The notes beneath the pieces were generated by a model, which saw nothing but the letters and a program-made list of their open reading frames with translations, ran no database searches and was not told the origin of the DNA. Source: an uncultured archaeon (GTDB lineage: Archaea > Halobacteriota > Methanosarcinia > Methanosarcinales > Methanoperedenaceae). Taken from it: DNA of 40,272 bases. Positions 11,846-39,844 of the stretch are shown here, piece by piece (position 1 is the stretch's first letter; every line of letters begins with the position of its first letter). The stretch covers positions 1 to 40,272 of the forward strand of contig CABMIH010000029.1 of the NCBI GenBank assembly GCA_902386205.1, written 5' to 3'. Both the position numbers and the translations under genes were made by a program.

Positions 11846-12235
11846 TCATTCTATTATTATTTTATATACCTTCTTATCCACAGCTTCTTTTTCCCATGGT
11901 CTCTTGTATATAAATACTATTTCGGTTTCCCCATTCTTTATAGCTTGAAATTCAAATCTTTCTTTGCCACCTGCTCCTACACTTTTTGATGATGGCTCGA
12001 ATTTTTTCCAATTTAATTTAATATAATTTGTATCAAGCTGAGATTCCCACGTATATCCAGTAGTTGGATTTCCATTAAAAAATATTGTAAAATTCTCTCC
12101 ATGTTTAATTTTCAATGTTGCCATCTCATCACCTCGAAGCTCAGTCTGTCTTTGTTCTTGTATTACGATTGCTATGATAAAAATAAGGAATAAAATAACA
12201 CCTATTATATATAAGTTTCTTAAAGATATAGGCAT
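11846..12235 (-). CDS. Chagasin-type cysteine protease inhibitor (I42), possibly membrane-anchored
   Basis: A 129-residue protein with the three chagasin binding loops: NPTTGYTW, GAGGKERFEF and YKRPWE. The long form (ATG 12235) begins with one membrane segment (LYIIGVILFLIFIIAIVI) after an arginine, predicted to place the inhibitor outside the cell. An internal ATG at 12124 has a much better ribosome-binding site (GAGGTGAT, 12135-12128) and would give a 92-residue cytosolic form containing all three loops. Both forms may be made. Its likely target is the C1A protease encoded 0.8 kb away in the same orientation. Confidence 0.85.
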   Translation of the reverse strand: MPISLRNLYIIGVILFLIFIIAIVIQEQRQTELRGDEMATLKIKHGENFTIFFNGNPTTGYTWESQLDTNYIKLNWKKFEPSSKSVGAGGKERFEFQAIKNGETEIVFIYKRPWEKEAVDKKVYKIIIE

Positions 12236-13016: not shown

Positions 13017-14120
13017 TTATTTTATTCCACTGATGTAGGTCAATTGATCCTCTTTCCAGTAGACATAGACACTGCACGATTCCATTAGCAACTTCGCTAT
13101 TCCCGCTACTTCGTCATCAGTGAGGTATTTGTACCGCCATGCATCCCCGGCATAAGCCCACAATACCCTGTTATCGGAGTTGCAATCATAGTCAACCAGT
13201 ATATACTGAGCGTAGCCGTTTCCCTCAGGCGATGGAACTTCCATATTCCACATTCCAAAGCCATCGTCCATACCGCATTGGCCATAGGCAATTCTGAAAT
13301 ATCCGCTTTCACCCCAGCCAGGTCCCCAGCTATTCTTGCAGATCCAGCAAGCGTTTGTATCGTCGTAACCTACAACAGATATACAATGGTAGCCTGCCAG
13401 ATCTCCATAGGCGTATTCATAGATTCCAGATGAATAGTAGAAGAAATCTTCATATACAGCCATGCCTGTAATTTGGGGCCCATTATTGGCTAGATTATCC
13501 TTCATTGTATTGACGTCTAAAGTATTGGCCCAGTTCGTAATCTTTGTGTGATCTATTCTGTCTGTCCAATCTGAACATGTGTTAGCACAGCTTACCCCTG
13601 AGTCTTGGTATGGAAAACAGTCTTCGTCAGGAACGCCGTTGTTTTTCAGGTAATTGCAGGCATCATCCATATACCAGCCTGAATTACAACAGTCTCCACA
13701 GCCACAATAGAATAGGTGTGCTTCAGATAGGTCGATGTTAATACTGGCATCATTATAAGTACGTATTTTCAGCAGCGCCTCCAGAGTTGCGACAGTACCG
13801 AAAGCCACACAAGATCCACAGCCCCCCTGGTCCTTGACTGGAGTCGTCCAATCTGCGCCATTCACGTTTCTCCAGTCTATGCTATCTGGAAGCCCAACAG
13901 CAGGTTTATATTTTAACTTTTTGATTGCACGGATTTCAGGTCTATCGAGACTCAGTCTTGAGACCATTTGTTTCTGTTTATCAGTTAGTTTGAGGCCGAG
14001 CTTCATTTTCTTCTCCTGTTCGCTCAATCCAGAAACGCTTGTTCGTTCAGCTTGCCATCTGATTTTTTTTTCTTTAATCTTTGCTCTAATTCCATTTAGA
14101 GAGGTTATTTCATTATTCAT
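13017..14120 (-). CDS. Papain-family (C1A) cysteine protease with extra C-terminal domain
   Basis: From ATG 14120 the protein has 367 residues. Residues 1-70 are a charged propeptide-like helix region. Residues 75-295 are the papain fold with oxyanion Gln98 and nucleophile Cys104 (DQGGCGSCVAF, with Val where Trp is usual), His245 (GYHCISVVGYD) and Asn263 (CKNSWGPGWG). Residues 300-367 form an extra domain repeated in the next gene. Many paired cysteines suggest disulfides, yet no signal peptide is seen, so location is uncertain. A TTG start at 14150 is possible. It is flanked by two candidate inhibitors. Confidence 0.92.
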   Translation of the reverse strand: MNNEITSLNGIRAKIKEKKIRWQAERTSVSGLSEQEKKMKLGLKLTDKQKQMVSRLSLDRPEIRAIKKLKYKPAVGLPDSIDWRNVNGADWTTPVKDQGGCGSCVAFGTVATLEALLKIRTYNDASINIDLSEAHLFYCGCGDCCNSGWYMDDACNYLKNNGVPDEDCFPYQDSGVSCANTCSDWTDRIDHTKITNWANTLDVNTMKDNLANNGPQITGMAVYEDFFYYSSGIYEYAYGDLAGYHCISVVGYDDTNACWICKNSWGPGWGESGYFRIAYGQCGMDDGFGMWNMEVPSPEGNGYAQYILVDYDCNSDNRVLWAYAGDAWRYKYLTDDEVAGIAKLLMESCSVYVYWKEDQLTYISGIK

Positions 14121-14150
14121 TCCTAATATTCCCCCTTTCTTTGTATTCAA

Positions 14151-16544: not shown

Positions 16545-17413
16545 AATATGCCAGCCTTTTCAAGTATTTTTCTTGTGCTTCCGTGGTTCCCGACAGGCAT
16601 GATATGCACGCCGTCGCAAATACCATGTAATTCGTTTATCAATTCCACGGCTATTTCAATACCAAGTGCCTCCGGGTTCTTTGCTTTTCGCATCCGGTCG
16701 ATCAGATTTTCGGGTACTTTGGTACCTGCAATATTTTTATTAAGAAACAGCGCGTTTTTTTCTGATTTCAACGGGATTATGCCTGCCAATATTTTAATTC
16801 GCTTTGATTTTATCTGATTAATTTTTTCCACAAAACTTGAAAACAAGTCAGCATCAAAGACGGCCTGTGTCTGAATGAAACTTGCTCCCATCCTGATCTT
16901 TTTTCCAAGTTTGATAAGTGAAACTTCGTTTAATTCCGTATTTGTTACTGCACCGGTACAGAAATCAGGATGGCCTTCAAGCCTGTTGCCTGAAAGATCA
17001 AATCCTCTGTTCAATTCCTGGATCAAACCGAGAAGCTGCACCGAATCCAGGTCATAAACCGGTTTTGCGCCTTCATGGTCGCCTTTTACAGGATGGTCAC
17101 CCGACATTACAAGTATGTTCCTTATCCCAAGCGCATAGGCTCCCAGGAGTTCAGACTGGAGCGCAAGCCTGTTCCTGTCCCTGCACGTCAGGTGCATTAT
17201 GGTCTCATATCCTTTGTTCTGCAGGAGACTGCATGCAGCCAGGGGGCTCATCCTCATCACAGCCCTCTGGTTATCAGTGACATTTATAGCGTCCACAATG
17301 TCTTTTATCAGTTCGGCATCCTCCAGCATGCTCTTGAAGTCAGTGCCTTTTGGCGGACTCAACTCGGCTGTAATAATGAATTTGCCTGAATCCAATTTTT
17401 CGCGGAAGCTCAA
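16541..17413 (-). CDS. metF: Methylenetetrahydrofolate reductase catalytic subunit MetF
   Basis: A 290-residue TIM-barrel flavoprotein of the MTHFR family. Landmarks are TAELSPPKGTD near the N-terminus, NVTDNQRAVMRMS, HLTCRDRNRLALQSELLGA and LVMSGDHP. The family interconverts methylene- and methyl-tetrahydrofolate. ATGA overlaps join it to metV upstream and thiC downstream. The pairing with MetV matches the two-subunit MetFV enzymes of acetogens. In an archaeon that uses tetrahydromethanopterin for energy metabolism, a folate-dependent copy likely serves biosynthesis, for example methionine synthesis (inference). Confidence 0.9.
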   Translation of the reverse strand: MSFREKLDSGKFIITAELSPPKGTDFKSMLEDAELIKDIVDAINVTDNQRAVMRMSPLAACSLLQNKGYETIMHLTCRDRNRLALQSELLGAYALGIRNILVMSGDHPVKGDHEGAKPVYDLDSVQLLGLIQELNRGFDLSGNRLEGHPDFCTGAVTNTELNEVSLIKLGKKIRMGASFIQTQAVFDADLFSSFVEKINQIKSKRIKILAGIIPLKSEKNALFLNKNIAGTKVPENLIDRMRKAKNPEALGIEIAVELINELHGICDGVHIMPVGNHGSTRKILEKAGIL

Positions 17414-18033
17414 TTTTTCTTCCTCCCCATTTTTTTTGCATGGTTTTTTGGCGTGTAAATGAATTCAAGATTTGAAAGTTTTCCGAGCTTTTTCAACCTG
17501 TCATATATTTCATCCCATGCGCATTTACGTTCATCCACTTCGCATTTTCCTTCCACGCCACCGCCGCACGGCCCGTTGAGCAGGCCCTTGGGACACCTTG
17601 CGACCGGGCAAATCCCCCCGTATTCCCATATCGTGCATTCACCGCACATACCGCATTGCTCTTTCAGGATTTCACTACCTATTCCACCGAGGGATTCCGT
17701 ATCAAGAGCTGGATATACCTGTTTTTCTGAAAATTTTGAGATTACTGATACTCCGCCCCCACAGGACATGATCAATAAAACATCGGACTTTCCTATCCCG
17801 GGATTCAGGGACAACACCTCTTCCCATGAACTTATGTTGCAGGCTGAACTCAGAACTGTCCATCCCGCGATGTTTTTCCCTGCAATGGAGAGTCTTTTTT
17901 TCATTTCAAGTACTTCGGTTTCACCGCCCACATGGAGTTTGGTCGCGCATTTCCCGCATCCGATTATGAAAATGTCACGCTCTTTCAGGGTCTTAAGGAT
18001 TTCTTTAAGTTCTTTTTGCCTTGATATTATCAT
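17410..18033 (-). CDS. metV: MetV-type Fe-S/zinc partner of methylenetetrahydrofolate reductase
   Basis: A 207-residue protein of the MTHFR C-terminal (MetV) family. N-terminal half is a CxxC-containing Rossmann-like domain (IIGCGKCATKLHVGG, LLIMSCGGGVSV). C-terminal half has a dense cysteine cluster (CGMCGECTIWEYGGICPVARC, then GPCGGGVEGKC and KCAWDEIYDRL), predicted to bind Fe-S clusters. In acetogens MetV links MetF to its electron donor. It starts 2 nt after folP and overlaps metF by ATGA. The motif lengths are complete and no damage is seen. Confidence 0.88.
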   Translation of the reverse strand: MIISRQKELKEILKTLKERDIFIIGCGKCATKLHVGGETEVLEMKKRLSIAGKNIAGWTVLSSACNISSWEEVLSLNPGIGKSDVLLIMSCGGGVSVISKFSEKQVYPALDTESLGGIGSEILKEQCGMCGECTIWEYGGICPVARCPKGLLNGPCGGGVEGKCEVDERKCAWDEIYDRLKKLGKLSNLEFIYTPKNHAKKMGRKKN

Positions 18034-18035
18034 TC

Positions 18036-19256
18036 TTATCTTGAATATCCAAAAACGACATCGTTTTTCTTATTTATTAATTCGGAAAGCATATCGGCTA
18101 TCAGGGGAAGTTCTCTCACCTGGTGCCTGATTTTTTTTATGAGACGCTCGACCTGGAGCTGTGTGCCGGCAATTATTAGACTTACTTTGTCAGTTTCATG
18201 GGATACGGCCTCCCGCGGAAGTGCAGCATCTCCACCCCTTGCGAGCATCTCCTGTTTTATTATCAGGGCTTCGGTCGTCGTGATATTCCGGAGCTTGATG
18301 TTATAATGTACGGTTTTTTTCTTCATTACTTCGCTGCCTGCTGATGTTGCACCGATCGAATGCATCGCTCTTTTGCAATCCTCCGGATTTTTTATATAAA
18401 GCAGTTCGGCTTCGATTATGCCTGATCTTATCGAGGGTATTCTTGCCCTTGCACTCTCTGCTACCCTGACTGCATCAATGGTAGGCGCAACATCGTGGGT
18501 CCTTATGATATGGGCTCCGTTTCTTACAGCGATGGCCGTGGCGGCAAGGCTTCCATAAAGCCTCTCGCCAGCTGGCTTATTCAGGGTCTCGCCGATAAAT
18601 GATTTCCTTGATATCGCGGCAAGTATGGGTTTTTCAAAAATTCGCAGTCTCTGGAGATTATCTATGGTCTCATAATCATATATCGGGAGTTTTTCAGGCG
18701 TCCATCTCCCGATAGCAGGGTCGATGATAATGTTGTCAGGTGATATCCCCTTTTCCTCTGCGGAGGATATTATTCTCTCCAGGGAATCCATCACGGCATC
18801 CATCCCCACAGGATCACCGGGAACTCTGTTGCTCGCCATAAGTATCACCGGGCACCCGTGGTCTTTTGCCACATCCGCCATCCCCGCATCAGCCGTGAAG
18901 CCGCTTACATCGTTGATGATGCCGGCTCCGGCATCAAGCGCTTCATCCGCAATGTCTGAAAACATGGTATCTATGGAAATAGGGACAGTAACTTCCTTCA
19001 GGAGCTTTACTGCGGGAATAAGACGCGAATGTTCTTCTTCTTTTGAGATTTTCCCGGCCAGCGGCCATGTTGATCGCGCGCCAATATCAATAAGATCTGC
19101 TCCTTCTTCTACCATCTTCAGGGCAGCATCAAGAACAGAGTCCGAGGGAATAACAGAACCTTTATAAAAAGACTCCCTGCTAAGGTTTATTACGCCCATC
19201 ACTCTTACAGGTTGATCGTCTCCGACTTTCAATCCTGCAATGGTTTTTTCTATCAC
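18036..19256 (-). CDS. folP: Dihydropteroate synthase-like protein
   Basis: A 406-residue protein. The N-terminal 270 residues are a DHPS TIM barrel: VMGVINLSRESFY, DLIDIGARSTWP, ISIDTM, INDVSGF and AISRKSFIGE, with the HIIRTHDVA end motif. An archaea-specific C-terminal extension of about 130 residues follows. DHPS joins a pterin to p-aminobenzoate or, in methanopterin synthesis, to a ribosyl-aniline. The archaeal homologs are longer and their exact reaction is not settled. GTG 19256 follows AAGGTA. First gene of the folate/one-carbon operon; a palindromic TATA region (TACTTTTTAAGTA, 19269-19281) precedes it. Confidence 0.87.
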   Translation of the reverse strand: MIEKTIAGLKVGDDQPVRVMGVINLSRESFYKGSVIPSDSVLDAALKMVEEGADLIDIGARSTWPLAGKISKEEEHSRLIPAVKLLKEVTVPISIDTMFSDIADEALDAGAGIINDVSGFTADAGMADVAKDHGCPVILMASNRVPGDPVGMDAVMDSLERIISSAEEKGISPDNIIIDPAIGRWTPEKLPIYDYETIDNLQRLRIFEKPILAAISRKSFIGETLNKPAGERLYGSLAATAIAVRNGAHIIRTHDVAPTIDAVRVAESARARIPSIRSGIIEAELLYIKNPEDCKRAMHSIGATSAGSEVMKKKTVHYNIKLRNITTTEALIIKQEMLARGGDAALPREAVSHETDKVSLIIAGTQLQVERLIKKIRHQVRELPLIADMLSELINKKNDVVFGYSR

Positions 19257-19373
19257 GTTTTACCTTAATACTTTTTAAGTACTCATAAGGTTTGCGTCTT
19301 TTGCTGCGGTTTGCATTTTTTAACCAAAAGCTATTTAAATGATTAAGAATAATTCTTTTTCAGGGAGGTTAAT

Positions 19374-19439
19374 ATGAAAGTCGTAAAAATCAAGAGAATC
19401 GCAAAAGGAACCTGCAAGTGCCACTCCTCATGCGCATAA
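19374..19439 (+). CDS. 21-residue Cys/His peptide, CKCHSSCA family, copy A
   Basis: ATG 19374 follows a near-perfect ribosome-binding site (GGAGGT, 19364-19369) and a TATA box CTATTTAAAT (19331-19340). The peptide begins MKVVKIKRIA and ends KGTCKCHSSCA, with a basic N-terminal half and a CxCHxxC tail. A second gene at 37792-37857 (minus) encodes a peptide identical at 18 of 21 positions but with mostly different codons in the tail, so both must be translated. The Cys/His tail could bind a metal or be modified. No known family recalled. Confidence 0.85.
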   Translation: MKVVKIKRIAKGTCKCHSSCA

Positions 19440-19461: not shown

Positions 19462-19881
19462 TTATTTTATCACTTCATACCCCGCTTTAGTCCATTCTGT
19501 AATTCCGCCGTTCATATTATACACCTGTGTAAATCCATTTTTTACCAGTATCTCGCTTGCCTGCGTACTGCGGTGCCCGGTCCTGCAATATACTAATATT
19601 TTCCTGTCCCGCGGTATCTCATTTAACCTTTTTTCAAGATCCTGAAGAGGGATCAATACGGAGCCATTGATATGCCCAGCATCGTATTCTTCCACAGTAC
19701 GCACATCCAGGATGAAAACCTCTCCCCCGTCGATCATTTTTTTACCATGCTCCACCGTGATATCGATTTGTTTTGCTTCTTCAGGCTGCCTGGCCGGGTT
19801 GGTACACCCGGATAATGCAACGAGCAAGATCACAATTCCTGCAATGGGACAGATCTTTCTCATAAGTTTTGAAATTCGCAT
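19462..19881 (-). CDS. Rhodanese-domain lipoprotein
   Basis: A 139-residue exported protein. The signal peptide ends in lipobox VALSGC (Cys26). The single rhodanese domain (residues ~40-139) has the active-site loop CRTGHRS (Cys99), FILDVRTVEEYDAGHINGS and the closing MNGGITEWTKAGYEV. Such domains transfer sulfane sulfur or act as binding modules; here on the outer face of the membrane. It lies 3 nt downstream of a methyltransferase gene on the same strand, so it is probably co-transcribed with it. Confidence 0.9.
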   Translation of the reverse strand: MRISKLMRKICPIAGIVILLVALSGCTNPARQPEEAKQIDITVEHGKKMIDGGEVFILDVRTVEEYDAGHINGSVLIPLQDLEKRLNEIPRDRKILVYCRTGHRSTQASEILVKNGFTQVYNMNGGITEWTKAGYEVIK

Positions 19882-22325: not shown

Positions 22326-22342
22326 TAAACGGAGTGAGAAAA

Positions 22343-23209
22343 ATGTTAGCAAGCTTTTTAATAACCTTCAGGGAAGCTCTTGAAGCCGCCCTGATAATCG
22401 GGATAATAGCAGCTTATATCAAAAAGCTGGGAAGAAAAGACCTTAACCGATATCTCTATCTTGGAATTGCAGGCGCGATAGCCGCAAGCACAGTAGTTGC
22501 ACTTTTATTCAAACTCATTTACGGCAAGCTTGCAGGCACGGCAGAGCAACTGTTCGAAAGCATTGCGGCCCTCACCGCAGCCGCGGTACTGACGTACATG
22601 ATATTCTGGATGGCGGAAAATTCAAAAAAGATAAAAGGGGAGCTGCAGGAAAAGATAGATGTTTCGATATCAAAAGGCCAGATGGCAGGAATCGCAGCCC
22701 TCTCCTTTGTCGCGGTTTTCAGGGAGGGGGTAGAGACCGTCCTGTTCCTAGGAACACTTGCAATAACTTCACCTGTTGATACGCTTATCGGTTTTGCAGC
22801 CGGTATCCTTACTATTGTTCTCCTGTCGTATATCATGTTCAAAGGGATATACAGGCTTGACGTAAGCAAGTTCTTCAAATATACAAGCATACTATTGATC
22901 CTGTTTTCTGCAGGTCTGGTGGCGACCGGCATACATGAATTCAATGAAGCGGGCATCATACCGCCAATTATAGAACATGTGTGGGACATAAATCCCCCCC
23001 TCAATCCTGATGGTTCATATCCCTTGCTTCATGAGAACGGCCTTATCGGCAGCAGCCTCAAATCCCTTATCGGCTACAACGCCAGTCCCTCGCTGACCGA
23101 GATGCTCGCCTACATTAGCTACTGGATCGTGATAGGAATTTTCGTGTACAGGACCTATAAGACACCCGGTGAGGTGAAAGCGCATGAAAGCAGACACCCC
23201 CAGGATTGA
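22343..23209 (+). CDS. FTR1-family iron permease
   Basis: A 288-residue seven-segment membrane protein of the FTR1/EfeU family, which imports ferrous or ferric iron. Both signature motifs are present: REALEAAL in the first segment and REGVETVLFLG in the fourth, whose glutamates bind iron. ATG 22343 follows GGAGTGAG; an in-frame GTG at 22334 is less likely. First gene of the iron operon and directly downstream of the two operators. It overlaps the regulator gene by 26 nt. Confidence 0.92.
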   Translation: MLASFLITFREALEAALIIGIIAAYIKKLGRKDLNRYLYLGIAGAIAASTVVALLFKLIYGKLAGTAEQLFESIAALTAAAVLTYMIFWMAENSKKIKGELQEKIDVSISKGQMAGIAALSFVAVFREGVETVLFLGTLAITSPVDTLIGFAAGILTIVLLSYIMFKGIYRLDVSKFFKYTSILLILFSAGLVATGIHEFNEAGIIPPIIEHVWDINPPLNPDGSYPLLHENGLIGSSLKSLIGYNASPSLTEMLAYISYWIVIGIFVYRTYKTPGEVKAHESRHPQD

Positions 23210-23834
23210 AGAATATCTTGAATCCATTTATAAACTCCAGCAGGATGAACATCCTGTAACCACATCCCGCCTTGCTGAACACCTGAAACTCTCGGCGCCA
23301 TCGGTTTCTGAAATGGTAAAAAAACTTGCGCAAAAGAAACTGGTCAACCATACTGAAAAAGGCGTCTGCCTCACGCAGGAAGGAAACCGGATAGCCAAAA
23401 AAGTCATCCGGAGGCACCGCCTGTCAGAACGGTTGCTTACCGATATCCTGGGATTCAGGTGGGATGAGGTCCATGATGAAGCATGCAGGCTGGAACATGC
23501 GATAAGCCCGGAAATGGAAAAACATATCGAAGAAAGCCTGGGAAACCCGAAAACATGCCCCCACGGCTTCCCGATCCCAGACGAGAACGGCGTCATTGCA
23601 AAAGAAAAACTCCGGCCCCTTTCTGAATTAAAAGCTTCAGACAAAGGGATCATAGTGAGTGTTTTTGAAGAGGACCCCAAAATGCTTCAGTATCTTGCGA
23701 CCCTCGGATTGATCCCCGAGGTATGTGTAAGAGTGGAAGAAGTGGCACCCTTCGGGGGGCCGCTTATCGTTTGTGTTTCAGGTTCAAGGTATGCACTCGG
23801 AAGGGAAGTAGCCTCAAAGATAAAGGTGAAATGA
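23184..23834 (+). CDS. DtxR/IdeR-family iron-dependent repressor with FeoA-like domain
   Basis: A 216-residue regulator. Residues 1-65 are the winged helix (IEEYLESIYKLQQDEHPVTT, SAPSVSEMVKKLAQKKLV). Residues 66-130 are the metal-binding dimerisation domain (RRHRLSERLLTDILGFRWDE, DEACRLEHAIS). Residues ~145-216 are an SH3-like FeoA domain. With Fe(II) such proteins bind inverted repeats and repress uptake genes; the two operators upstream of this operon fit autoregulation. Overlaps the FTR1 gene by 26 nt and feoB by ATGA, so all are coupled. Confidence 0.93.
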   Translation: MKADTPRIEEYLESIYKLQQDEHPVTTSRLAEHLKLSAPSVSEMVKKLAQKKLVNHTEKGVCLTQEGNRIAKKVIRRHRLSERLLTDILGFRWDEVHDEACRLEHAISPEMEKHIEESLGNPKTCPHGFPIPDENGVIAKEKLRPLSELKASDKGIIVSVFEEDPKMLQYLATLGLIPEVCVRVEEVAPFGGPLIVCVSGSRYALGREVASKIKVK

Positions 23835-25837
23835 TGCTTTCGTGCCATGGTACACTAAAGGATATAAAAGGCAACACCGACTTTATTTTTGTGCTTGCAG
23901 GCAATCCCAACGTGGGAAAATCAAGCATATTCAACCGCCTTACAGGAATGGGAGTGGTCACTGCCAACTATCCCGGTAAAACAGTGGAATTGAATATGGC
24001 GACCACGGATTTTAAGGATCTCAAGATCGGTATCATCGACCTCCCCGGAAGTTATGCTCTCGGCGCTGTATCTGAGGACCAGTGGGTAGCCCGCAGGGCC
24101 GTTCTTGACAGCCATCCCGATGCAGCCGTAATGATCCTTGATGCCACCAACCTTGCAAGGAACCTCTACATGATGCTCCAGTTCATTGACCTTGGCATTC
24201 CTCTTGTTGCGGCGCTGAACCTTATAGACGAAGCTGAAAAAAGAAATATCATAATCGACGCCGGAAAGCTTTCAGGACTCCTTGGTGTCCCTGTAGTCCC
24301 GACAATAGCAACGACCGGGCACGGGCTTGATGAACTGATACAGGCTGCTGTGGATATTGCAGGTAAAAAAACAGGGATCAAATATGGCCTGCGATACGGG
24401 CTGGATATTGAAGCGAACATAAAGAAAGTCGAAGACCTGATATCACCATATGGTTTTGGGATCGCTTCCCGGGCACTGGCAATACTGCTCCTTGAAGAAG
24501 ATGCGGAGTTCGTGGAGCTTGTAAAAAGCCATCCGGATGGAAATCAAGTTCTTGAAGAAGTAAGAAAGATCAGCAGGGATATAGAAAAAAAGCACGGCGA
24601 AAAGACACCGCTGCGGATCGCCAGGGAAAGGCACGGGCTTGCCGGGGCTATTGCATCGCAGGTACAGGGCGACGTTTCACCCATTAGATCAGACAGGCTC
24701 TGGGCTTACACCACTTCACCAGTCACCGGAATACCATTGCTCATAGGCGTGATGGGGATTATCTTCGGTTTCCTGTTTTATGGCGGGGACCTGCTTTCGA
24801 CGTTCTTAAGCGGGCACTGGGCATCGTATATTTCCCCTGTGATCGACGGTGCGATATTCTATGTTCTGGGTGAGGGACATATGGGTAAAATACTGGTATG
24901 GGGATTTGACGCCGGCATCCTGGCAGCGCTTGCTGTCGGGATACCTTATGTGCTCACTTTCTATTTCATGCTCGCCTTCCTCGAAGATACCGGATACCTG
25001 AACTCAGTGGCTTTCCTGACAGACAGGCTGATGCACAAGTTCGGGCTCCACGGGCGCGCAATTATCCCGCTTGTGGCGGGTGCAGGGTGCAATGTGCCGG
25101 CCATCATAGGTACGCGGGTACTTACGACCATGCGCGAGCGGACAATAGCCAGTACGCTGATCACACTCATCCCGTGCAGCGCAAGGACGGCTGTGATCCT
25201 GGGCGCAGTCTCATTGTTCGTTGGCTGGAAACCGGCCGTCGCTATATATGTTATCGTGCTTGTACTTGTGTTCCTTGTCGGTATAGGGCTTAACAGGGTC
25301 ATGCCCGGCACTTCCACAGGGCTTGTTATGGAGATGTTCCCCTTCAGGGCGCCCCTGATGTCAAATATCTTCAAAAAAACCTGGTTCAGGTTCAGGGATT
25401 TCGTGTTCGTGGCGTTCCCGATAGTCCTTGTGGGCTCCCTTGTGCTCGGGGCGCTCTATGAGACCGGATACCTGTGGAAACTTTCATCCCCGTTATCTCC
25501 AGTAGTCGAAGGATGGCTCGGCCTTCCTGCTGTAGCAGGATTGACTTTAATATTTGCCATCCTCAGGAAAGAACTTGCTCTCCAGCTCCTTGTCACGCTT
25601 GCAGTGGTTATGTACGGGGGCGGCGCGAAGAACCTGCTGCTGTTCATGACCCCGGCGCAATTGTTCGTGTATGCTCTGGTGAACACTATCTATATTCCAT
25701 GCGTTGCCACTATTGCTGTTCTCGGTCGCGAGCTTGGCTGGAAGCGTGCGGGAGGTATTATGGCCTTTACTGTAACTCTTGCAATACTGATCGGTGGTCT
25801 TGCTTACAGGTTCATTGTATATTTCCGGCTTTTATGA
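23831..25837 (+). CDS. feoB: Ferrous iron transporter FeoB
   Basis: A 668-residue protein. The N-terminal G domain has G1 GNPNVGKSS, G3 DLPGSYAL and NLIDEAEKR in the G4 position, followed by a helical GDI-like region. The membrane part has two Gate-like regions, with GCNVPAIIGTRVL and PCSARTAVILGA holding the conserved cysteines. Start is ATG 23831 or the adjacent ATG 23834; AAGGTGA spacing favours the second. An upstream in-frame extension into the regulator gene is rejected. No separate feoA gene is seen; the regulator's FeoA-like domain may be relevant. Confidence 0.95.
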   Translation: MMLSCHGTLKDIKGNTDFIFVLAGNPNVGKSSIFNRLTGMGVVTANYPGKTVELNMATTDFKDLKIGIIDLPGSYALGAVSEDQWVARRAVLDSHPDAAVMILDATNLARNLYMMLQFIDLGIPLVAALNLIDEAEKRNIIIDAGKLSGLLGVPVVPTIATTGHGLDELIQAAVDIAGKKTGIKYGLRYGLDIEANIKKVEDLISPYGFGIASRALAILLLEEDAEFVELVKSHPDGNQVLEEVRKISRDIEKKHGEKTPLRIARERHGLAGAIASQVQGDVSPIRSDRLWAYTTSPVTGIPLLIGVMGIIFGFLFYGGDLLSTFLSGHWASYISPVIDGAIFYVLGEGHMGKILVWGFDAGILAALAVGIPYVLTFYFMLAFLEDTGYLNSVAFLTDRLMHKFGLHGRAIIPLVAGAGCNVPAIIGTRVLTTMRERTIASTLITLIPCSARTAVILGAVSLFVGWKPAVAIYVIVLVLVFLVGIGLNRVMPGTSTGLVMEMFPFRAPLMSNIFKKTWFRFRDFVFVAFPIVLVGSLVLGALYETGYLWKLSSPLSPVVEGWLGLPAVAGLTLIFAILRKELALQLLVTLAVVMYGGGAKNLLLFMTPAQLFVYALVNTIYIPCVATIAVLGRELGWKRAGGIMAFTVTLAILIGGLAYRFIVYFRLL

Positions 25838-37773: not shown

Positions 37774-37792
37774 TAAAATCCTTTTACAGGAT
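37774..37792 (-). terminator. Terminator hairpin after peptide copy B
   Basis: Read on the minus strand, ATCCT (37792-37788) pairs with AGGAT (37782-37778) around GTAAA, and is followed by TTTT (37777-37774). It begins within the peptide stop codon, a compact arrangement suited to a tiny monocistronic mRNA. Confidence 0.5.
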
Positions 37793-37857
37793 CAAGCGCA
37801 GGAAGAATGACATTTACATGTTCCTTTTGCGATTTTCTTTATCTTTCTGATCTTCAA
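37792..37857 (-). CDS. 21-residue Cys/His peptide, CKCHSSCA family, copy B
   Basis: TTG 37857 lies 6 nt after a strong ribosome-binding site GAGGTG (37869-37864). The 21-residue product begins MKIRKIKKIA and ends KGTCKCHSSCA. It differs from copy A (19374-19439) only at three positions, all conservative or in the basic half, while eight of the last ten shared codons differ. A TATA-like AAATTTAAA lies near 37916-37908, and a terminator hairpin abuts the stop. The gene is therefore a complete tiny transcription unit. Function unknown; metal binding, modification or signalling are possible. Confidence 0.83.
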   Translation of the reverse strand: MKIRKIKKIAKGTCKCHSSCA

Positions 37858-38167
37858 TGTCTTCACCTCAATAAGACAGATTACTCTGATTCTTTAATTT
37901 GTTTCTGGTTTAAATTTGGAAAATTCAAAACACTCAATGTGACTTTAAAAATGGATGAAAGTTAATGGAATTGAAGAGGGGTATCGATTAAATACGAAAC
38001 ATTTTTAAATACATAAGGTATCCAAAACTCTGGAAATACATATTATCAGGGGAAAAACGATATTGCACTTGATATGTGCATTTGAAAAAAGTTAGTGTAA
38101 CGGACCAAAAACGCCTTGCAGACAGAATGTGTACTTGCGGATAATGAAAACCCCATAAGGTTATCAA
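37858..38167. other. Intergenic stretch, promoters only
   Basis: Contains the presumed promoter of peptide copy B (minus, near 37908-37916) and TTTTTAAATAC near 38005-38015 (plus) as a TATA-like element for the membrane-protein gene. No further ORF with a ribosome-binding site was seen. The 37623-37773 stretch on the other side of the peptide likewise shows only AT-rich sequence. Confidence 0.5.
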
Positions 38168-38521: not shown

Positions 38522-39844
38522 TTGAAAATCTGTCTGATCTCTCCGCAATTTCCTCATTCAGGCCGTGTTCCCATGTCGCCTCCGATCCTTGAATATCTGG
38601 GGGCGCTGACCCTCAAGGCAATGCCGGTTGCCGAACTTGAACTCATCGATGCAAATGCAAATGAGCCGCAGCCTTCCGGCATCCGGGCTGATCTCATCGG
38701 GATAAGCTCTGTCACGGCTACAATAACATGGTCTTATAAATTCAGCGATGAATTAAGAAAGCTCGGGAAAAAAGTCATCCTTGGCGGAATACATCCGACA
38801 GCGCTCCCCGAAGAGGCAAAACTGCATGCGGACGCCGTTGTTGTCGGGGAGGCCGAATCAGTCTGGCACGAGGTCCTGAGGGATGCCCATGATGGATGTC
38901 TGAAACCCTTTTATTATGGCCAGAGGCAGCCATTGGATGACCTGCCGCTACCGCTTGCGGTGAAAGGGCCGTACAAATTCAGGGCTGTTTTTACCATGCG
39001 GGGGTGTCCTTACAAATGCATATTCTGCTCTGTGAGGAAGTTCTTTGGCGATACCATACGATACCGTCCGGTCGATAATGTAGCCGCGGAAGTTGAAAAA
39101 TTCGCAGGCAGGATATATTTTAATGGCGACGATAATATATGGGGCGGGGATTTGAAGAGGTCGATTGAACTTTTTACGAAACTATCCACGGGCAAAAAGA
39201 AGTGGTGGTATGGTTTCGGGGACCTGCGCGCCGTTCAATCGCCGCTTGGCGATGAGATGCTTGAAGCTGCAAGGAAAAGCGGGCTTTGTTCTGTCTGGGC
39301 GGGATGGGAAACCTCATCAGGCGAGGGGCTGCGGATGTACCATGCCGAAGCCAAACAGGGTAAGGACAGGGAAGAAGCTGTCAGGAAAATCAAGAGTTAC
39401 GGTATTGATGTGACCCTTTTTGTCGTGCTCGGGGGAAGATCCGATACTGCCGATGATTTTGACAGGGTCATTGACCTTGCAAAAAGGCTCGGGGTCGCAA
39501 TTCACCCGGTTCTCCTGACTCCCCTGCCGGGCACCGAGCTTTATGAAGAATACAAGCCCTATCTTTTAAAGGACAGGGGATGGGAGTACTATACCGGGGT
39601 CAATGCCGTCTTTGAACATCCTGCGATGAGCCCTGAAGAGAGGGAGGAGAAGTTCTATAAGACCTCGCTTGAGTTGTTGAGTACGAAGAGGATATTGATG
39701 CACCTGTTCGAGATACCTTTGCGGGGTTTTCCGATGACGCATGTGCTTTCACTGATGAAACAGATTCCTATGAAAAGGGCTATGGAGAGAGCGTACAGGG
39801 AGTGGAAGAGGAACAAGGGGAAAGGAAGTATGGGAGGACAATAA
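38522..39844 (+). CDS. B12-binding-domain radical SAM enzyme
   Basis: A 440-residue protein. Residues 1-130 form a cobalamin-binding-like domain (SPQFPHSGRVPMSPPILEYL, LGGIHPTALPEEA) lacking a classical DxHxxG motif. Residues 155-350 are the radical SAM barrel with cluster cysteines 162, 166 and 169 (GCPYKCIFCS). The C-terminal part is helical and basic. Such enzymes methylate unactivated carbons or rearrange rings in hopanoid, carotenoid, lipid or cofactor synthesis. TTG 38522 follows AGGGGACGG. Substrate unknown; the small membrane protein upstream hints at a lipid-related role (inference). Confidence 0.85.
   Translation: MKICLISPQFPHSGRVPMSPPILEYLGALTLKAMPVAELELIDANANEPQPSGIRADLIGISSVTATITWSYKFSDELRKLGKKVILGGIHPTALPEEAKLHADAVVVGEAESVWHEVLRDAHDGCLKPFYYGQRQPLDDLPLPLAVKGPYKFRAVFTMRGCPYKCIFCSVRKFFGDTIRYRPVDNVAAEVEKFAGRIYFNGDDNIWGGDLKRSIELFTKLSTGKKKWWYGFGDLRAVQSPLGDEMLEAARKSGLCSVWAGWETSSGEGLRMYHAEAKQGKDREEAVRKIKSYGIDVTLFVVLGGRSDTADDFDRVIDLAKRLGVAIHPVLLTPLPGTELYEEYKPYLLKDRGWEYYTGVNAVFEHPAMSPEEREEKFYKTSLELLSTKRILMHLFEIPLRGFPMTHVLSLMKQIPMKRAMERAYREWKRNKGKGSMGGQ

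Follow-up and report, generated by a model that had tools for sequence, protein, structure and literature searches.

Two short genes in the window, by which we mean the whole stretch of 40,272 nucleotides analysed here, encode 21-residue cysteine-containing peptides that most likely serve as starting material for a partner radical-SAM enzyme, which would convert them into a chemically modified peptide. We consider it very probable that the peptide is the precursor of a small system of the RiPP type, its tail being modified by a radical-SAM/SPASM enzyme, and peptide and enzyme together most likely represent a new peptide-maturation system that is unusually small and unusually well conserved. 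A gene of 20 residues lies below the usual annotation limit, and the partner enzymes have therefore been left as unnamed radical-SAM proteins in many genomes. The pairing provides a testable precursor–enzyme system across Methanoperedens, Archaeoglobi, Desulfobacterota and Nitrospirota. A preliminary description had drawn attention to the two genes; the neighbouring or co-occurring enzyme and the reach of the family into bacteria go beyond it.

Two peptide genes in the window

The window, contig C29 in its entirety, belongs to a genome of 2.79 Mb and contains the following features.

19321..19340, + strand: promoter-like element TAACCAAAAGCTATTTAAAT of copy A, BRE/TATA-like, a putative promoter; a similar element lies 5' of orthologues
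19363..19369, + strand: Shine-Dalgarno sequence GGGAGGT of copy A, kept in orthologues
19374..19439, + strand: copy A, 21-residue precursor-like peptide MKVVKIKRIAKGTCKCHSSCA; ORF with ATG start, HMM match and homologues
19462..19881, - strand: rhodanese-domain lipoprotein, convergent with and 23 bp from copy A; Pfam PF00581, E 1.6e-24; recurrent neighbour
37792..37857, - strand: copy B, 21-residue precursor-like peptide MKIRKIKKIAKGTCKCHSSCA; ORF with TTG start and HMM match
37864..37869, - strand: Shine-Dalgarno sequence GAGGTG of copy B, kept in orthologues
37892..37911, - strand: promoter-like element AAACCAGAAACAAATTAAAG of copy B, a putative promoter; a similar element lies 5' of orthologues

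The positions and reading of both ORFs, with their Shine-Dalgarno sequences, are as first described. The encoded peptides are identical at 18 of 21 residues, the mismatches falling at positions 3, 4 and 8 when TTG is counted as Met, and the earlier estimate that about eight of the ten codons for GTCKCHSSCA differ synonymously agrees with the count of 8/10. Over the whole gene A and B differ by 11 synonymous and 4 non-synonymous changes (pN/pS 0.096), while a comparison across homologues, a check proposed in the preliminary description, gave a pN/pS of 0.26 over all pairs of 47 CKCHSSC genes; both figures are biased downward since the genes were retrieved by their peptide, and the main case is independent of them. 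On this sequence evidence copies A and B are genuine coding genes under purifying selection, as had been argued, and not the result of recent duplication.

A degenerate motif pattern matched the 2.79 Mb genome twice, at copies A and B only, and the peptide HMM recovered both with an E value of about 2e-11 in a single-genome search. That the two are chance ORFs or a recent local duplication is hardly credible, common as short ORFs are: the reversed control pattern gave no match in the same genome, the synonymous divergence between A and B is near saturation, and full-length homologues occur in four class- or phylum-level groups with E values of 1e-5 to 1e-12 per genome. This explanation was rejected on the strength of the homologues in many genomes.

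A promoter-like element precedes each copy and is conserved among the orthologues of that copy. These 5' elements are strongly conserved by paralogue type (TTTGCAAAYTTAAACCAAAA..., CCRAAARCTACTTAAAT), for example at window positions 37892-37911 and at loci L103 and L104. In Archaeoglobi, CCGAAACATTATTATACATTT lies near the ATG of peptide genes, a proximity that suggests leaderless transcripts. Orthologues of copy B begin at the same position with ATG, GTG or TTG. At one locus (L044, G015:C151) a typical ribosome-binding context is followed by ACG where the start codon is expected, which is either an error or a non-standard start.

A peptide family in archaea and bacteria

Pattern and HMM searches returned homologues that are full-length at 20 or 21 residues and end in C-K-C-x-x-S-C-(x), their ORFs being preceded by a ribosome-binding site or, for some Archaeoglobi copies, by a TATA-like box near the ATG. 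Searching related genomes, as the preliminary description had advised, revealed many homologues with a conserved CKCHSSC: at least one copy was found by HMM in 25 of 30 genomes of the same genus, and the peptide occurs in all three other genomes of the same family. With a 29-row profile, full-length tiny ORFs were found in 18/59 Archaeoglobi, 29/345 Desulfobacterota and 30/246 Nitrospirota genomes, the group names being those of the genomes used as centres of each set. In a sample of the window's own phylum the peptide was present in 24 of 393 genomes, all of them already seen, either as relatives or as genomes of Archaeoglobi type. Named records with the peptide in a separate collection were mostly Ca. 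Methanoperedens, the further carriers being an ANME-2 archaeon, Geoglobus, Mnemosynella, a Nitrospirae bacterium and Desulfarculus. Viral contigs contained 34 pattern matches, none of which was a relative. Weak HMM matches outside the family (E 0.005-1; for example in G073, G123 and G088) were discarded as fragments within longer or unrelated ORFs.

The commonest residues among 133 distinct genes are M-[KT]-I-[KR]-K-[VI]-x-[KR]-x3-[GT]-[TLI]-C-K-C-[KH]-S-S-C, in which the constancy of C14, K15, C16, S19 and C20 is partly forced by the search motif. Position 17 need not be His, Lys being commoner in bacteria, and the defining tail is thus CKCxxSC; the CxCHxxC motif originally put forward holds for the many homologues with CKCHSSC but is too narrow for the family. 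Within the Methanoperedenaceae, tails of CKCKSSCA adjoining a maturase (G004) and of CKCGRTC adjoining a rhodanese (G033) (L110, L112) likewise indicate that the His is replaceable. Three copies appear decayed (L111, G003:C50; L113, G006:C128; L114, G021:C39), with an altered tail after CKC, CKGHSSCA and CHSSYV, suggesting gain and loss of paralogues inside the genus. No Pfam or NCBIfam model matches the peptide, in keeping with the initial statement that no described family was known. Judged by their sequences, the 20-21-residue cysteine peptides are a previously uncatalogued family that extends over methane-oxidising archaea, Archaeoglobi and two bacterial phyla.

Linkage to a radical-SAM/SPASM enzyme

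Outside the window genome the peptide gene usually adjoins a gene of one family, which encodes ~390-residue radical-SAM/SPASM proteins whose N-terminus is predicted to be RRE/PqqD-like. The radical-SAM gene directly follows the peptide gene in Geoglobus, Mnemosynella and Desulfarculus. In Desulfobacterota the pair shares one contig and strand in 29/29 peptide genomes, mostly 17-500 bp apart, with the peptide upstream in 23 and downstream in 6; adjacency is also seen in Archaeoglobi, Nitrospirota and several Methanoperedens. Among genomes searched with both profiles, the counts of those with both, peptide only, enzyme only and neither were 29/0/6/310 in Desulfobacterota (Fisher p 1e-36), 18/0/2/39 in Archaeoglobi (3e-13), 29/1/51/165 in Nitrospirota (3e-15) and 28/2/0/30 in the relatives (4e-15), p values that are overstated because related genomes are not independent, although the pattern repeats in four groups.

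The window genome and several relatives encode the peptides at a distance from the enzyme, and where extra copies have no adjacent enzyme it is still encoded elsewhere in the genome. Five genus members without the peptide also lack the enzyme. The peptide was present and no enzyme was detected in G010 (84% complete), G033 (91% complete) and G382. Conversely, 51 Nitrospirota genomes have the enzyme and no above-threshold peptide; in some a diverged peptide adjoins the enzyme (for example MTIKKIVRKPATTCKCKGSC), and others yielded no peptide.

Apart from the peptide and a small Cys protein, no gene recurs in the enzyme neighbourhood in most genomes. Lineage-limited neighbours, named by eye, are IscS (10 genomes), IscU (6), ATP-grasp-like (6) and cupin-like (6) proteins. 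In some Methanoperedens (L246, L249) the maturase gene is followed by one for a phytoene-desaturase-like FAD protein, likewise identified by inspection. A B12-binding radical-SAM gene within the window (38522-39844) was considered as the maturase and rejected; it is of a different kind and did not turn up beside copy-B orthologues.

A Cys-responsive leader peptide, acting as an attenuator for a downstream gene, would also be very short and Cys-rich with a strong ribosome-binding site. We rejected this proposal, which is very improbable, on the arrangement of genes around copy A and its orthologues: the next gene after copy A is convergent and 23 bp away, leaving nothing downstream to attenuate. 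Elsewhere the downstream genes vary among loci, while precise length and sequence are conserved across archaea and bacteria and linkage is to one enzyme family.

Features of the enzyme and its small partner

The window genome's orthologue of the enzyme is encoded on contig C19 at 17100-18296 (L245:8101-9297; 45% identity, E 3e-87). Its CNLACKHC motif is the CX3CX2C radical-SAM signature, the cysteines of which are invariant in the enzyme alignment, and CGSHLCSVSPDGKVSRC, CHDCSHIRECRGGC and the last Cys make up a seven-Cys SPASM pattern, as defined by CX9-15GX4C..CX2CX5CX3C..C (PMC6231123). Archaeoglobi enzymes carry a CX1C variant of this motif. Matches to the enzyme profile are two-peaked, orthologues (mostly full length, E < 1e-80) being separated from generic radical-SAM proteins (E about 1e-30 to 1e-40), and the solved enzymes nearest to the profile include SkfB, PqqE, anSME and CteB.

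An AlphaFold (AF2) model of a congener's enzyme was of moderate confidence (pLDDT 76.6, pTM 0.81), its SPASM part being poor. Foldseek searches with this model ranked SkfB, SuiB and CteB first, the alignment to SkfB and SuiB being nearly full length. Residues 1-76 of the model comprise strands followed by three helices, an RRE-like order, although no domain HMM matches RRE.

The start of the C19 enzyme gene is overlapped by an ORF for a 53-residue CxxC protein. By a strict pattern, a ~53-residue Cys protein precedes 34/67 enzymes, and several Desulfobacterota have a longer Cys-rich protein instead. The 53-residue partner matches no Pfam or NCBIfam model, and its AF2 model (three helices, pLDDT 65) lacked the quality needed to look for similar folds.

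Proposed maturation

Linkage, co-occurrence and the type of enzyme make it likely that the peptide is the substrate. By analogy with such enzymes, residues 1-13 (M-K-I-x-K-V/I-x-K-...), which are basic, would form a very short leader bound by the enzyme's N-terminal RRE-like domain, and the C-K-C-x-x-S-C tail would be the core that is modified. SuiB, also close to the enzyme, makes a C-C link. The most likely change would join at least one Cys sulfur to a nearby residue in a thioether, as with the relatives SkfB and CteB; this assignment of the bond, drawn from analogy, is a weaker inference than the substrate role, and we favour it with some reserve. Enzymes of this kind bind the leader through the RRE and introduce thioether bonds or C-C links into the core (PMC8326336, PMC6231123). 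In the window genome the C19 enzyme and its ~53-residue Cys partner would act in trans on copies A and B. The system shares with RRE-radical-SAM-SPASM RiPP systems a short precursor gene linked to, or co-occurring with, the maturase gene and the radical-SAM and SPASM motifs of the enzyme, the RRE and the covalent change being putative.

The preliminary description had offered four roles for the peptide. Linkage to and co-occurrence with the enzyme favour the modified natural product; we consider a metal or Fe-S mini-protein acting on its own less probable, although binding of metal or sulfur by the modified product would still be possible. The unmodified peptide could be a small soft-metal or Fe-S binder of the metallothionein-like CxC...C kind that the enzyme uses as an accessory, for instance a cluster donor or activator. 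CKCxxSC does look like a metal-binding tail, and genes for Cu-ATPase, rhodanese and thioredoxin-like proteins are found close to extra copies. We nevertheless regard this as unlikely, since the linked enzyme has a predicted RRE-like domain, of a kind that normally binds precursor peptides, size and layout fit precursor-maturase pairs, and copies without an adjacent enzyme accompany one elsewhere in the genome.

Neighbouring genes and possible role of the product

Copy A and its orthologues converge with the rhodanese lipoprotein gene at 22-33 bp (the window, L032, L038, L043 and L112). In Archaeoglobi and Mnemosynella (L398, L400, L102) a same-strand, membrane-anchored rhodanese starts 30-32 bp downstream of the peptide, and at L398 a thioredoxin-like gene lies 39 bp upstream. 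Two Geoglobus copies have rhodanese and thioredoxin-like genes within about 2 kb and Cu-ATPase-like genes within 1-2 kb. As some loci are orthologous, these represent perhaps two or three independent rhodanese associations, and no such rhodanese was found near enzyme-linked peptides. The neighbours of the extra copies are only suggestive of a role in the chemistry of sulfur or soft metals, with the cell envelope as a possible site.

Iron uptake genes form a block at 22334-25837, 3-6 kb from copy A (an FTR1 permease, a DtxR-type repressor-FeoA fusion and a FeoB-like protein, the last named by eye), and an FTR1-like gene is also near the Mnemosynella peptide-enzyme locus (L135). A link between the block and metal supply for the peptide system is possible, if speculative. 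Elsewhere in the window, a papain-like protease with a C-terminal extension and a short NPTTGYTW protein are encoded near one another (11846-12235 and 13017-14150); the latter presumably resembles a chagasin-type inhibitor.

The near-constancy of the tail across two domains of life suggests one shared, conserved product rather than a variable toxin or bacteriocin. Constancy of this kind is a mark of cofactor precursors, as for PQQ and mycofactocin, more than of antibiotics, and it is thus a real possibility that methane- and sulfur-cycling anaerobes make a new conserved product with a redox or metal/sulfur-handling function. That the product is a conserved cofactor-like or soft-metal/sulfur-binding peptide is a tentative proposal. 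Equally conjectural is a single peptide-derived cofactor or metallophore common to anaerobic archaea and bacteria, its precursor being among the smallest dedicated ones known to us, with paralogues tuned at position 17 (His versus Lys, Ser or Asn) for different partners; the His type might act with extracytoplasmic rhodanese/thioredoxin-like or copper-handling proteins.

Comparison with known systems

The enzyme falls below every NCBIfam cut-off, and by these scores the peptide-enzyme pair belongs to no curated family tested. GeoRSP and W_rSAM_matur are among its better NCBIfam matches, but with scores of 65-96 bits against cut-offs of 380-400. No account of the pair turned up in searches of open PMC text, which is weak evidence that none exists.

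Methanobactin has a short basic leader and a Cys tail and is made by MNIO/DUF692 enzymes. The present peptide shares leader, tail and a possible copper link with methanobactin, whereas its linked enzyme is a radical-SAM protein. PQQ and mycofactocin (PqqA-PqqE, MftA-MftC) resemble the system in their tiny, highly conserved precursors, which become cofactors through a SPASM enzyme and a PqqD-type partner. In contrast to PqqA, the peptide members read here lack Glu-x3-Tyr; they also lack the C-terminal Val-Tyr of mycofactocin, and the enzyme is below the cut-offs of both families.

Ranthipeptides, or SCIFF (CteA-CteB; PMC8326336), likewise pair a SPASM maturase with a Cys precursor of wide conservation, CteB being among the best structural matches of the enzyme, and their wide spread has been argued to count against an antimicrobial role (PMC8326336). 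SCIFF, however, has six Cys in about 45 residues compared with three in 20-21 here. Sactipeptides of the SkfB/AlbA type (PMC6231123) share with the system the RRE-radical SAM-SPASM/Twitch architecture (the RRE being predicted here) and a Cys-bearing precursor gene near the enzyme, and SkfB is the best match in sequence and fold among solved enzymes. The system differs from them in that the enzyme is far below the AlbA and SkfB NCBIfam cut-offs, export and immunity genes do not recur around it, the bond is putative, and the precursor has 20-21 residues with a tail nearly constant across phyla.
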